DNA from: Prochlorococcus sp. AG-363-G03
GTDB taxonomy: Bacteria; Cyanobacteriota; Cyanobacteriia; PCC-6307; Cyanobiaceae
Length of the DNA: 35,955 nt
Assembly (NCBI GenBank): GCA_003280265.1
Contig: QCFJ01000012.1
Location: 1 to 35,955, forward strand
Direction of reading: 5' to 3'
Shown: piece after piece, positions 8,716-14,774 of the stretch
Position numbering within the stretch: position 1 is the stretch's first letter
Layout: each line of letters starts with the position of its first letter
Made by a program: the position numbers and the translations under genes
Notes under the pieces: generated by a model
What the model was told of the DNA's origin: nothing
The model's input: the letters and a program-made list of their open reading frames with translations, nothing else
Database searches by the model: none

Positions 8716-11055
8716 TTGAGTGGTTTCGGGAAAAAGAGAAAAGAGAATAAAGGCTCTTCTAAAAAACTCCGAAACCTTTCAGAAAAGGATCTGAAAGCAC
8801 AATCAATCGATCATCATCTTAAAGGTAATTTAGATGAAGCAGAAAAAGGATATATAACTTTTTTAAAAAATGGGTATTCTGATGCAGATATAATTTCAAA
8901 TTATGCACTTATATGTGAAGAAAAAGATGAAAATGATAAAGCTATTAAACTATATGAAAGATGTATAAATAGCTATCCAAATCATATTTTTTCAAAATTA
9001 AATTTATCTTATTTATATTATAAGTTAAATAATTTAAAAAAGGCAGAAGTAATCATTGAAGAAGCCATTAAATTAAAGCCTAGTCTTCCAAATAGCTATT
9101 GTATTAAAGGATTAATTCTGAAAAGTTTAAACAAATATAATGAGGCTAAAATATCACTTAAACAAGCAATCAAACTAGATAATAATTACTTTGATGCTTA
9201 CATAAATCTAGGGTTGCTAAATAAAGATTCTAATAAATATGATGAGGCAGAAAAATATTATTTAAAAGCATTGGAAATAAATAATAAATCTGCTATAGCT
9301 CATTTAAATCTAGGCGCATGCTACAAAGATAAACAAGAACTAGAAAAGGCAATATTACATACAGAAAAGGCAATAGAGATAGATAATAAACTAGAAAAAT
9401 GTTATTTAAATCTAGCAACGATCTATAACCAGATGGGTGATTATAAAAAATCACTATCACTTACAAAAAAAGAAATTTTATTGAATAAAAATAGTAATTT
9501 AAGTTTTCAACTTTTAAGTGACTTAATTAAAAAAGGAGAATTATTAAATACATCAAATAAAGATAATAGAGAATTGCTTAATAATATATTAAATAGGAAA
9601 GATATTTCTCATAGAGAGCTATTTGGCAATATAAATAGCCTGATATCCAAAGAAGTATTAGAAAAATTATCGGTTTTAGAATCAGAATTATATGATAAAA
9701 GTGAATTTAATATTCTTATTAAGGACAAAGAATTAGTAAAAGCACTTTCATTACTCATATTTTGCTCTCCGTTATGGGAAAAAGTTTTAAGGAACGTACG
9801 CAAGAATATTCTAATGAGCTATTCAGATAAAGATAAAATAAGCAATAATATTTTAAATTTCACTATAGGACTTGGATCACAATGTTTCTTAAATGAGTAT
9901 GTCTATTACATATCCACAGAAGAAGAGGATAAGCTAAAAGAACTTAGGAAAACCATCAATAATAATAAAAATAAAGATTATAAAATAGCAATAATCTCTT
10001 GCTATCAATCTCTATCTTCAATAAACAATGAAATCATTAATTTGAATGATTATGTATCAAACAATAAAGAATTAAATAATCTACTTAATTTACAAATCAA
10101 GGAATTAAATGATGAAAAAAAGATTTCAAAAGGGATTAAAAAGATAGGAAATATAAAAGATTTTATATCTAAGGAAGTGAAAAATCAGTATGAATTAAAC
10201 CCATATCCTAGATGGAGGTATAATTCATTTGCTAAAGAAAACAAATTAAACTACTTATCGGTTATTAATTCTGAAATTTATCCAAATAAATTTCAATCTA
10301 ATTCAGATCAATTAAAAAATAAAAAAATAAATATACTTATAGCTGGTTGTGGAACAGGGATTCAAATACTTGAAGCATCTCGATATAGTAATTGTGAAAT
10401 AACAGCAATCGATTTAAGCAATTCGAGCATCTCATATGCAAAAAGGAAGGTCGATGAATATGGATTGAAAAATGTCGATTTTATAGAAATGGATTTACTT
10501 GAATTAAAATCATTAAATAAAAGATTTGATTTAATAGAATGTTCAGGTGTTCTTCATCATATGAATGATCCTACTAAGGGATTATCAAATTTATTTGATG
10601 TATTAGAAGCAAAAGGTTTTTTAAAGTTAGGTTTCTACAGCAAATATGCAAGAAAAGAAATACTAAGAGCAAGAGAAATAATCAAAGAAAAAGATCTTAA
10701 ACCAAGCGTTGATGAAATAAGAAGCTTCCGAAATGACGTTCTTAATGGAGAGATAAAGAAGTTAGATAAAATAACTAACTGGTCAGATTTTTACTCAACC
10801 TCAATGTGTAGAGATCTCTGCTTTCATAGTCACGAAAACTGTTACTCGTTAATTGAAGTTAAAAAGATGCTAAAAACATGTAATCTGGAATTCCTAGGTT
10901 TTACTCTTTCAAAAGATATAAAAGATAAATATCAGAGAGATAATAAAGATATAGACTCTTTAAAAGATTTAGAATTATGGGATAAATTTGAAAAATCAAA
11001 TCCTAATTCTTTTAGAGAAATGTATCAATTCTGGGCTAGAAAATCAATTAAATAG
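8716..11055 (+). CDS. TPR-repeat protein fused to class I SAM methyltransferase
   Basis: A 779-residue protein from a TTG start. Residues about 25-270 are tandem TPRs (several A...L..A..L.P/NN..A motifs such as ALEINNKSAIAHLNLGACYKD). A long helical linker (about 270-480) follows, then the QYELNPYPRW element that often precedes the methyltransferase in this family. The SAM domain has motif I ILIAGCGTGIQILEASRY near 538, an acidic strand end AIDLS, and motif IV IECSGVLHHMNDP. TPR-methyltransferases of this kind are common in marine picocyanobacteria and are thought to act on glycans or small molecules; the substrate is unknown. The gene is very AT-rich, with many Asn/Lys codons, so it may be acquired or fast evolving. 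Confidence 0.85.
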   Translation: MSGFGKKRKENKGSSKKLRNLSEKDLKAQSIDHHLKGNLDEAEKGYITFLKNGYSDADIISNYALICEEKDENDKAIKLYERCINSYPNHIFSKLNLSYLYYKLNNLKKAEVIIEEAIKLKPSLPNSYCIKGLILKSLNKYNEAKISLKQAIKLDNNYFDAYINLGLLNKDSNKYDEAEKYYLKALEINNKSAIAHLNLGACYKDKQELEKAILHTEKAIEIDNKLEKCYLNLATIYNQMGDYKKSLSLTKKEILLNKNSNLSFQLLSDLIKKGELLNTSNKDNRELLNNILNRKDISHRELFGNINSLISKEVLEKLSVLESELYDKSEFNILIKDKELVKALSLLIFCSPLWEKVLRNVRKNILMSYSDKDKISNNILNFTIGLGSQCFLNEYVYYISTEEEDKLKELRKTINNNKNKDYKIAIISCYQSLSSINNEIINLNDYVSNNKELNNLLNLQIKELNDEKKISKGIKKIGNIKDFISKEVKNQYELNPYPRWRYNSFAKENKLNYLSVINSEIYPNKFQSNSDQLKNKKINILIAGCGTGIQILEASRYSNCEITAIDLSNSSISYAKRKVDEYGLKNVDFIEMDLLELKSLNKRFDLIECSGVLHHMNDPTKGLSNLFDVLEAKGFLKLGFYSKYARKEILRAREIIKEKDLKPSVDEIRSFRNDVLNGEIKKLDKITNWSDFYSTSMCRDLCFHSHENCYSLIEVKKMLKTCNLEFLGFTLSKDIKDKYQRDNKDIDSLKDLELWDKFEKSNPNSFREMYQFWARKSIK

Positions 11056-12257: not shown

Positions 12258-12689
12258 TCAACCAAAAGGGTTAGATCCCTTAAGTGGTCCTACGAAAAGA
12301 AATTCAATAACAGTACCAACTATTGCCATCGGGAAAACCCATATAGACATAAATCTTAGTCCCATGAACTTCATTCCACCTTTACCTGCAAAGGCATCTT
12401 TGGTCATTGTATAAACAGTTTCTGTATCACTTACTTCATAAGAATCATTAATACCTGGTTCGTAAGGTTTAACAAAATCCATCCTATTAAATAAATTTCT
12501 AATTTTATTAATAGCGACTATTGGCCAAACCCATAAATAAAAGATACGAGATCCCAATCTATTAGCATCAGATTGTGGATTTCCCAAATCCTTATTAGTG
12601 TTGTCTTTTGGGAAAGAATCTTCAATTATCGAAGCTATTGCCTCTTGATCAGTTGTGTAATCAACTACAGTATTTGCTGAATCCATCAA
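12258..12689 (-). CDS. Membrane protein with internally repeated membrane segment
   Basis: A 143-residue protein with an acidic N-terminal 40 residues and two membrane segments. The segments match each other: LGSRIFYLWVWPIVAI (about 45-60) and MGLRFMSIWVFPMAIV (about 109-124), that is (L/M)G.R(I/F)..(L/I)WV(W/F)P. The linker between is polar (FVKPYEPGINDSYEVSDTETVY). The C-terminus ends GPLKGSNPFG. I recognise no family. It is followed by the shared terminator and lies downstream of the PsbF-like gene on the same strand, 180 bp away. That gene has its own terminator, so the two are probably separate transcripts. An inner photosynthetic-membrane role is inference from the neighbours. Confidence 0.75.
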   Translation of the reverse strand: MMDSANTVVDYTTDQEAIASIIEDSFPKDNTNKDLGNPQSDANRLGSRIFYLWVWPIVAINKIRNLFNRMDFVKPYEPGINDSYEVSDTETVYTMTKDAFAGKGGMKFMGLRFMSIWVFPMAIVGTVIEFLFVGPLKGSNPFG

Positions 12690-12787: not shown

Positions 12788-12817
12788 AAAAAGACCTGTA
12801 TAAATTCAGGTCTTTTT
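12788..12817 (-). terminator. Intrinsic terminator of the PsbF-like gene
   Basis: An 11-bp perfect stem (aaaaagacctg / caggtcttttt) around an 8-nt loop. Read on the minus strand it is followed by a T-run, 50 bp beyond the stop of the PsbF-like gene. Confidence 0.88.
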
Positions 12818-12869: not shown

Positions 12870-13163
12870 TTATGCATTTATTACACCACGGCGAATAAAT
12901 TGCATTGCAAATATTGCTCCTAGGAAAAAGACTGTAGGGATTCCCAATGCATTTACTGCCAAGGTTCTAACAGTAAAGACCGGGTAGCCTCCTGCAGGTC
13001 TTCCTTTATCAGCAACAATTGCAGTATCTTCCCAAACTTGCTCGTTTTTAATAGTAGGGCCATTATCCCAAACAAATACTCCCCACCTACGCAACCAATA
13101 ATCAGCAAAGGCAAGAGTAAAAATAACTGGAGAAAGAACCAGTAATAATTTAAGTGTGTTCAT
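12870..13163 (-). CDS. PsbF-like membrane protein lacking the haem-ligand His
   Basis: A 97-residue protein. The last 40 residues are clearly cytochrome b559 beta (PsbF)-like: [18 protein letters not shown] then TVFFLGA and AMQFIRR. True PsbF is about 45 residues, with His in LA(V/L)H.LGIP as axial haem ligand. Here that position is Asn71, so the b559 haem pairing with PsbE cannot form in the usual way. The N-terminal 58 residues are an unrelated extension with one membrane helix ([21 protein letters not shown]) and a Trp/Arg-rich stretch ([13 protein letters not shown]). It is therefore not the canonical psbF, which should lie in psbEFLJ elsewhere. A photosystem II assembly, repair or variant subunit, or a subunit of another complex, is inferred. 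It is divergent from the gene at 13358. Confidence 0.85.
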
Positions 13164-13357: not shown

Positions 13358-13795
13358 ATGGAATTCGGTTTTAAAGAAATTCTTTTCGGATTAGCAGGAG
13401 TAAGCATGGTTGCTTGGGCAGCAGTTATCGGCCTCTGGCATACCTATATGTTTCCAAGATTTTTCAAAGAAGATTCAAGTCGAATTAATAGCTCTACTCC
13501 AGCAAATTCCGTAGCTCAATCAGCTCCTGAAAACAACGGCACTAACAAGCCTTGGTTCCTTGACGACGAAGGAGGTTCACTTACACCTCAGACAGCACTC
13601 GGTGCAATAGGTCTTACCGATAGAGGCAAATACAGTAAAAAATCTTTTGTAGTTGCTGATTTCAATCCTGTTGAAGCTGGTTATGGAGTTAATAGGCTTT
13701 ACACGTCGATTTTAATTGGTTTGGCTATTAGTACTTTTGTAATAATTTCCTTTGGGCTTCAAAGTGGTTTTGGAATGATGGGGCCAACCTTATAA
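13358..13795 (+). CDS. Two-helix membrane protein with hydrophilic middle
   Basis: A 145-residue protein. Helix 1 is about residues 8-30 (ILFGLAGVSMVAWAAVIGLW) followed by HTYMFPRFF. Residues 38-112 form a Ser/Asn/Asp-rich middle with WFLDDEGGSLTPQTALGAIGL and SFVVADFNPVEAGYGVNRLY. Helix 2 is about 115-135, with a Gly/Met-rich tail (GLQSGFGMMGPTL). No family is recognised. The small size, two spans and position between a PsbF-like gene and flavodoxin suggest a thylakoid complex subunit, which is inference. Codon use matches the core genes. Confidence 0.72.
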   Translation: MEFGFKEILFGLAGVSMVAWAAVIGLWHTYMFPRFFKEDSSRINSSTPANSVAQSAPENNGTNKPWFLDDEGGSLTPQTALGAIGLTDRGKYSKKSFVVADFNPVEAGYGVNRLYTSILIGLAISTFVIISFGLQSGFGMMGPTL

Positions 13796-14258
13796 ATTGA
13801 CTCAAGGTAAAGCGAAAAGAGATAGAACCAATCTTAAAAATTTCAATTACCAATTTCTTAAATGCTTTATAAAATCAAGCTTCAAACATTATTTTGTTTG
13901 AAAAAGAAAGCTTTAATTTGAAAAAACAAATGTTTTCAGATAAAGATCTTTAATGAAAAGTTTTTTACTGATTTTCAAATCTTTTTCTCAAGTTAATTTT
14001 AAATCGACAGCAATCAATTTTTTGTTCGCATTTTTTCTATAGGTTTCTCTCTAAAACCCCTTTTAGAGACTAGATTTAATAATCTTGATTGCCACTTCAA
14101 ACGAAGTTAGGAATTAGTTGCCTAGTAAGCAAACGAATAAATATTGACTTATTTATGTATCAAAATCAATATTTAAGAGACAAGAAAATTTAAAAAAAGC
14201 CAAATTCACTCTAAATGTGCAAAGCTGCTTTAAAATATTCTTGATTTTAAATTGCTCC
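13796..14258. promoter_or_regulatory. Long flavodoxin upstream region with structured elements
   Basis: No gene is seen in this 463 bp. It holds three inverted repeats: tcaaaca/tgtttga (13882-13901), tctctaaaa-cccc-ttttagaga (14048-14069, a perfect 9-bp hairpin) and aaatattga/tcaatattt (14139-14174, 18-bp spacing). Flavodoxin genes are commonly iron-regulated through Fur in cyanobacteria, and one of these could be an operator or leader structure. None matches a Fur box well enough to assert it. Confidence 0.4.
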
Positions 14259-14774
14259 ATGACTGTAGGAATCTACTTCGCTACAACAACAGGTAAAACC
14301 GAAGATATAGCTGAACGGCTGCACGGCTTACTTGACTCTGCTGAAGGTCCAAAGGATATTTCAGATGTCGATGACCTTAGTGAATTAGCTGGACATGATG
14401 GGGTTATTTGTGGAATCCCTACATGGAATACCGGTGCTGACTCTGAAAGGTCAGGAACTGCTTGGGATTCAATCCTTGAAGACATTGGTGAACTAAATCT
14501 CAGCGGTAAGAAAGTTGCGATTTTTGGTTTAGGTGATTCATCTACTTACACCGAAAACTATTGCGATGCAATGGAAGAACTTCATAGGTACTTCCAACAA
14601 GCAGGTGCATCAATGGTTGGATACACTTCTAAGGCTGACTATACGTTTGACGAATCAAAAAGTGTGGTTGGAGAACAGTTCTGCGGATTACCTCTCGATG
14701 AAGATAGTGAATCAGACATGACTGATGAAAGACTTGAAGGATGGGCTGAAAAACTAAAAAGCGAGATGTTTTAA
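14259..14774 (+). CDS. isiB: Flavodoxin
   Basis: A 171-residue long-chain flavodoxin, an FMN electron carrier that replaces ferredoxin in photosystem I electron transfer when iron is short. The FMN phosphate loop ATTTGKTEDIAE lies at about 8-19. GIPTWNTGADSERSGTAWD surrounds the flavin ring, and FGLGDSSTYTENYCDAM is the second flavin loop. I chose the ATG at 14259 because the protein then begins MTVGIYFATTTG as in the family; 14 codons upstream in frame are not conserved-looking. Its own terminator follows at 14796. The acidic composition is usual. Confidence 0.95.
   Translation: MTVGIYFATTTGKTEDIAERLHGLLDSAEGPKDISDVDDLSELAGHDGVICGIPTWNTGADSERSGTAWDSILEDIGELNLSGKKVAIFGLGDSSTYTENYCDAMEELHRYFQQAGASMVGYTSKADYTFDESKSVVGEQFCGLPLDEDSESDMTDERLEGWAEKLKSEMF

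Follow-up and report, generated by a model that had tools for sequence, protein, structure and literature searches.

The window analysed here is a stretch of 35,955 nucleotides from Prochlorococcus sp. AG-363-G03 (contig QCFJ01000012.1, positions 1 to 35,955), which is contig C12 of a genome (G000) that is 57% complete. The open reading frame at 12870-13163, for which the first-pass annotation had given the correct coordinates and no strand, is located on the minus strand, starts with an ATG at 13163 and encodes a protein of 97 amino acids that, judging from the reading frame and the profile matches, is a long-form cytochrome b559 beta subunit consisting of a PsbY-like helix, a linker and a PsbF domain. 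The PsbY-like helix (residues 1-32; 13068-13163) is assigned at the level of the family, the window sequence alone being below the cut-offs; the linker (residues 33-59; 12987-13067) includes a Trp44-Glu45-Asp46 triplet that is nearly invariant in the alignment of homologues; and the PsbF domain (residues 60-92; 12888-12986) is delineated by Pfam (PF00283) and PDB matches. The codon for Asn71, which occupies the position of the haem-ligand His in the alignment with PsbF, is at 12951-12953, all these segments being on the minus strand. A terminator-like hairpin (12788-12817, minus strand) lies 3' of the gene and another one lies inside the gene itself, both detected by consensus match only, and a scan of the window for sigma-70-like promoters found none around the gene.

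Two genes for membrane proteins of unknown family are often linked to the long form, a divergent one at 13358-13795 (plus strand) and a downstream one at 12258-12689 (minus strand); in 73 and 71 of 80 loci, respectively, a homologue lies no more than 5 kb away from it. The first of these proteins has an invariant Trp27-His28 pair in its first helix, with the same His28 in all seven aligned homologues, and the second contains two similar R-F-x-x-IWV-x-P helices. Searches of Pfam, NCBIfam and PDB with these proteins, singly or as profiles, yielded no credible relative, and the weak matches (two with E of 0.6-0.8 and one with E of 0.056) are taken as chance. Among 14 further loci, 13 of which contain the long form (genera g2, g7, g8, g18, g21, g28 and g38), the flanks differ, and a homologue of the divergent gene was identified in only three. 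The long form has a flavodoxin gene (14217-14774, plus strand) at a distance of about 1 kb, a neighbour seen only in the loci of g1, the Prochlorococcus genus to which the window belongs, and g2, its sister genus; a link to iron limitation is possible. Elsewhere in the window, the plus strand at 8716-11055 encodes a 779-aa protein that contains TPR repeats and a methyltransferase domain.

The window protein matches both PsbF profiles above the respective cut-offs (36.8 bits vs 30 for PF00283 in Pfam and 64.0 vs 61.15 bits for TIGR01333) and scores 173.4 bits, with a cut-off of 153, against NF002717, the NCBIfam family 'cytochrome b559 subunit beta, long form'. A PDB comparison of residues 60-92 at E<=1 retrieved 34 sequences, 32 of which are labelled PsbF or b559 beta; of the remaining two, 7ymi_F is labelled PsbY but is matched in its PsbF part, and the other one is unrelated (E 0.9). 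The first-pass annotation correctly recognised the C-terminal block as PsbF-like but assigned 40 residues to it, whereas the match covers about 33. Within this helix block, the window protein keeps Arg66, the counterpart of the beta-subunit Arg that contacts a haem propionate in b559 (PMC4709441). The differences from PsbF, a single helix of ~45 aa encoded in the psbEFLJ operon, are substantial: the axial His is replaced by Asn71, the Trp four residues before the ligand position by Thr67, and the block is preceded by a 59-residue extension with a second, hydrophobic helix at about residues 5-23, so that the protein has 97 aa and two helices and is encoded in a locus of its own outside psbEFLJ. 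The replacement of the haem His and the presence of an N-terminal extension with its own membrane helix had both been claimed from the first reading and are confirmed here, and Asn71 bears out the accompanying statement that this protein is not a normal bis-His beta subunit.

The ligand position is occupied by Asn in all 171 long-form locus rows (86 distinct) and by His in all 108 short PsbF rows (60 distinct); these are sequence-pattern counts that include repeat entries of one genome and could miss odd forms. Both Asn codons are in use, AAT in 148 of the 171 long-form rows and AAC in 23. The conservation across genomes, combined with the use of two codons, rules out chance, a pseudogene or a sequencing error for His, the last of which had been named initially as a way in which the Asn could prove spurious. 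Within the 30-codon PsbF domain, pS is 0.50-0.91 compared to pN of 0-0.10 in 12 comparisons; this domain of the long form is under purifying selection, with very strong constraint. The long form of G257 (L325, genus g38) is shorter than the others and has a different linker, and because it contains the Asn yet still keeps the Trp, the His change may have preceded the Trp change, in which case this form could be an early intermediate.

The long form was identified in 31 of the 41 g1 genomes. Within a set of 223 Cyanobiaceae genomes (222 that are at least 95% complete plus G000), 62, as counted by eye, encode a full-length long form, including all 13 genomes of g1, the single genomes of g2 and g28, all three of g7, both of g21, 38 of 60 of g8 and 4 of 23 of g18; none was found in the remaining genera of this set. 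In an order-wide sample searched at E<=1e-17, the long form is encoded by 122 of the 399 genomes, from 8 of the 44 genera, and all of these belong to family f1. Among 17 g1 genomes that are at least 90% complete, no long form was seen in G008 and G019, and G014 has a contig-end fragment only; likewise, psbE was not seen in G017, G023 and G000, and we take these g1 gaps for assembly gaps. At the profile level, the homologue L069 matches NF002720 (209 bits, cut-off 127), and those from g18 (129 bits) and g38 (96 bits) are below the NCBIfam long-form cut-offs. One genome, G214, carries two long-form copies (L329 and L330), each with its own PsbY-like ORF downstream. A phage collection searched with the long form gave no match, and the single viral-contig match (L279) was rejected as a phage homologue, since it spans only 12 aa of a 577-aa ORF, which we take for a terminase.

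The family as such is already named in NCBIfam as the 'long form' (NF002717/NF002720, PRK02561), with the window protein a member by score, and a chain containing PsbF and PsbY is already in the PDB. The family names give no hint of the lost haem ligand, of the half that resembles PsbY or of the absence of psbF and psbY in g1 and g2, and a search of an open-access library found no paper that describes the ligand loss, a fusion of this kind in Prochlorococcus or the disappearance of psbF and psbY.

The N-terminal domain, initially considered new, is PsbY-like instead, although the window sequence falls below the curated PsbY cut-offs: its N-terminal half fails the PF06298 cut-off, and its N-domain matches nothing in Pfam at E<=10. 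The likeness emerges at the level of the family. In an hhalign comparison, the N-domain profile matches the PsbY profile with a probability of 94%. The PsbY model scores ten N-domains at 3.8-16.1 bits, and six of the ten exceed 9.7 bits, the top score among 2000 helix shuffles, with the window sequence, at 7.5 bits, below that value. Only one of four N-domains scanned in Pfam, that of L051, matches PsbY (E 0.028; 14.7 bits vs the cut-off of 24), and the same domain compared with the PDB at E<=10 has PsbY as its only match (E 1.1). A standalone PsbY of 41 aa from G066 scores 24.5 bits against the PF06298 cut-off of 24, as well as 43.7 bits with the N-domain model, and its C-terminal end, FWLFRWGVFNLDN, resembles the corresponding stretch of the window protein; judging by these scores, it bridges ordinary PsbY and the long-form N-domains and is the one exception, in Pfam, among long-form N-domains and their relatives, which otherwise remain below the PsbY cut-offs. 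In 45 of 80 loci (L021-L100), those of MIT 9302 and MIT 9401 among them, the long form is immediately followed by a further standalone PsbY-like ORF of ~60 aa with the FWL..WGAF motif, and an ORF of this kind likewise follows it in L329, L330 and L331. Four g18 genomes that encode the long form (G244, G245, G248 and G250) possess two separate psbY genes, each over the cut-off.

On this evidence, we read the long form as a PsbY-PsbF fusion with a PsbY-like extra helix. The long form shares with PsbY (PF06298, NF009711) an N-terminal motif and the helix length but differs in its FWL..W ending, where PsbY has FNIGRAA, and in being fused to PsbF. In photosystem II, PsbY adjoins PsbE and PsbF, that is, it sits beside b559 (PMC4823308), and Arabidopsis without PsbY has been reported to contain b559 in the low-potential form only, PsbY being needed for the high-potential form (PMC9214863).

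A fusion in the opposite order is represented by chain F of the photosystem II structure of Acaryochloris marina (7ymi/7ymm; PMC12661325), a 99-aa chain labelled PsbY that comprises PsbF at 11-47 and PsbY at 63-98, so that, as deposited, PsbF and PsbY form one chain of a solved photosystem II. Compared to the window protein, PsbF comes first and the His is kept, but this chain makes both the PsbY-PsbF reading and a place in photosystem II more plausible for the window protein. The N-terminus of PsbF faces the stroma; the two fusions would accordingly join their parts on opposite sides of the membrane, both compatible with a PsbY C-terminus in the stroma.

The g1 and g2 genomes appear to have no other beta subunit. 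In the seven g1 genomes that are 99-100% complete (G001-G007), PF00283 matches psbE and the long form only; nothing beyond these two was matched in 18 g1 genomes (G000 and 17 that are at least 90% complete), and the same two matches were obtained in G041, the one complete genome on which the g2 evidence rests. A short-PsbF query at E<=10, run on the g1 genomes, matched only the long form and, weakly, PsbE, and recovered no short PsbF. In all 15 psbE loci found in g1 and in G041, the gene order is psbE-psbL-psbJ, the first two genes being 29-34 nt apart, whereas psbE and psbL are separated by 172 nt in G046, a genome with psbF. The possibility of a hidden short psbF in g1 and g2 was rejected by tblastn of two short PsbF sequences (E<=10) against 16 psbE loci, which returned only PsbE. 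A psbY gene scoring over the cut-off is found in none of the eight genomes G001-G007 and G041 and in all 16 tested genomes that have both the long and the short PsbF; G052 has a short psbF but neither a long form nor a psbY match, and in G209 the long form was seen with no short form at E<=0.001. By all these searches, the Asn protein is the only known b559 beta subunit in g1 and g2, and the only one available to PsbE in G001-G007 and G041, the window genome, at 57% completeness, not being decisive. That the protein is the only PsbF, an outcome counted against the initial reading when it was proposed, is thus what the seven nearly complete or complete g1 genomes contain, and the suggestion that it belongs to a different, unrelated membrane complex is not supported for g1.

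We consider it likely that the gene encodes a true beta subunit of a variant photosystem II cytochrome b559, namely, a PsbY-PsbF fusion that replaces the ordinary psbF and psbY in g1 and g2 and yields a one-His cytochrome in which the haem is either high-spin or lost. We infer its presence in photosystem II, the docking and the haem state from the sequences. The PsbF helix of the fusion would pair with PsbE as usual, and the PsbY helix would probably dock at the adjacent PsbY site, with the linker in the stroma. Since Asn stands in for the beta His, alpha His23 would be the only His left to bind the haem. The most probable outcome is that the haem is retained as five-coordinate or weakly Asn-capped, hence high-spin and with a changed potential; the next most likely state would be its absence. 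In both cases, b559 would keep its structural role, and the bis-His redox function would be altered or given up. In the clades that also keep a short psbF, the fusion would be an alternative beta subunit.

The closest known parallels are engineered ligand mutants of b559 and of the bc1 complex, in which one His of a bis-His haem b is likewise removed (PMC4709441, PMC9214863, PMC8138165), the difference being that the change seen in the window is natural and fixed in whole lineages. In bc1 from Rhodobacter capsulatus, a His-to-Asn substitution at a bis-His haem b has been reported to produce a high-spin, high-potential haem, and earlier work on R. sphaeroides had come to the conclusion that no haem was present (PMC8138165). 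The alpha H23A and H23M mutants of Thermosynechococcus assembled active photosystem II with apo-b559 (PMC4709441, PMC9214863), and in Synechocystis, b559 ligand changes, including those to Gln, abolished photoautotrophy, with the exception of H22K in alpha (PMC4709441, PMC9214863). A one-His haem is not assured, given the haem loss in H23A and H23M and the mostly non-photoautotrophic Synechocystis ligand mutants. On the other hand, His23, Arg18 and Tyr19 of PsbE are kept in all 16 g1 and g2 rows; since His23 and Arg18 stay fixed, we slightly favour a retained one-His haem over none, with the chances that haem is still bound in the b559 of these genera being about even.

The main alternative keeps the same subunit and makes b559 haem-free in g1 and g2, a purely structural alpha-beta pair that would save one iron per photosystem II; we give it a real but clearly less than even chance. 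It is compatible with the active photosystem II of the Thermosynechococcus apo-b559 mutants and with changes next to both haem ligands, Thr67 (for Trp) in the long form and Ala26 (for Thr) in PsbE. The invariance of PsbE His23, Arg18 and Tyr19, which would be unneeded without haem, argues against it. The flavodoxin gene about 1 kb away would agree with iron saving, but it is a neighbour only at g1 and g2 loci.

The first-pass annotation had also suggested a decoy or assembly subunit in the place of PsbF. The PsbF place fits; a factor that holds it only transiently is unlikely, considering that no other PsbF was found in g1 and g2 and that deletion of the b559 beta subunit reportedly destabilises photosystem II in Synechocystis. 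A role as alternative or assembly subunit may apply in the clades with a short, His-bearing PsbF, and the long form is dispensable in g8, where it is absent from 22 of 60 genomes. It is very improbable that a different residue or protein, such as His28 of the divergent neighbour, makes the haem six-coordinate again: the invariance of this residue and the linkage of its gene to the long form in most of the 80 loci speak for it, but the gene is found in only 3 of the 14 further loci, a Trp-His pair could equally bind chlorophyll, and there is no structural support. A PsbE homodimer that binds the haem in g1 and g2 while the fusion serves as PsbY only, which the retention of PsbE His23 would allow, is similarly hard to credit, as the strong constraint on the PsbF half (pN 0-0.10) would be unexpected if that half were idle.

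PsbE itself has changed in these genera, with Ala26 in 16 of 16 g1 and g2 rows, whereas all 108 remaining rows caught by the pattern have Thr26; positions 19, 23 and 26, altered here or in other lineages, are also those that were altered in the Thermosynechococcus study (PMC4709441). In a ycf48 tree of 65 loci, built with psbE left out, g1 and g2 form a group (89/86), and the pattern shared by the two genera is probably the result of one evolutionary event; the co-change of Thr26 to Ala is therefore suggestive only.

A mirror case was detected in the alpha subunit. Among the 30 PsbE loci most similar to that of G066, out of 345 genomes with a match, alpha His23 is replaced by Gln in 14 genomes of ten genera (G066, G289, G310, G323, G327, G274, G278, G256, G262, G271, G277, G272, G263 and G251; alpha-Gln loci L259, L290-L302 and L310, by reading of PsbE), and the other 16 keep His23. 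In the alpha-Gln genomes, Arg18 is replaced by Lys (Asp in G251) and Tyr19 by Phe, and the short PsbF keeps its His, with Trp replaced by Phe. On the ycf48 tree, alpha Gln requires two changes, and 1% of the bootstrap trees give one; a single origin is disfavoured accordingly, although the branches with strong support demand no more than one change. In each lineage, one His appears to have been lost and an amide gained, with the other His kept. An FWL..WG-type PsbY is also present in the alpha-Gln genome G066. A broader interpretation, which we put forward tentatively and rate just short of an even chance, is that in picocyanobacteria a bis-His b559 was made one-His twice and in opposite subunits, by beta Asn in g1 and g2 and by alpha Gln in ten other genera, with a carboxamide opposite the remaining His and a special FWL..WG PsbY accompanying the first case and one or more genomes of the second. 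Photosystem II cytochromes of this kind would make up a natural class of their own, either with an open-coordination haem suited to oxygen, superoxide or quinol chemistry or haem-free.

Cytochrome b559 is regarded as an essential photosystem II component, and PsbF as a near-universal one. Many of the engineered b559 ligand mutants show poor growth or none (PMC4709441), and a 2025 review describes no consensus on whether b559 has any redox function of physiological relevance (PMC12661325). Lineages that lack one of the ligands by nature, among the most abundant phototrophs of the ocean, would make this question testable in cultures, and the long form ties PsbY to b559 both by fusion and by joint absence. 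If a one-His b559 indeed evolved twice, oxygenic photosynthesis in nature would be able to do without the bis-His redox function.

Published expression data touch on this family in two strains. G046, presumably the genome of SS120, encodes both the long and the short form. Because of this, SS120 proteomics, in which PSBF_PROMA was detected near PsbE levels (PMC5451487), does not tell which form was detected. In MIT9312, the transcript of a 'PsbF-like' gene (PMT9312_RS06075), which by the position of its tag should be the long form, falls together with those of psbB, J, K, T and O under one plastic leachate (PMC6517427).
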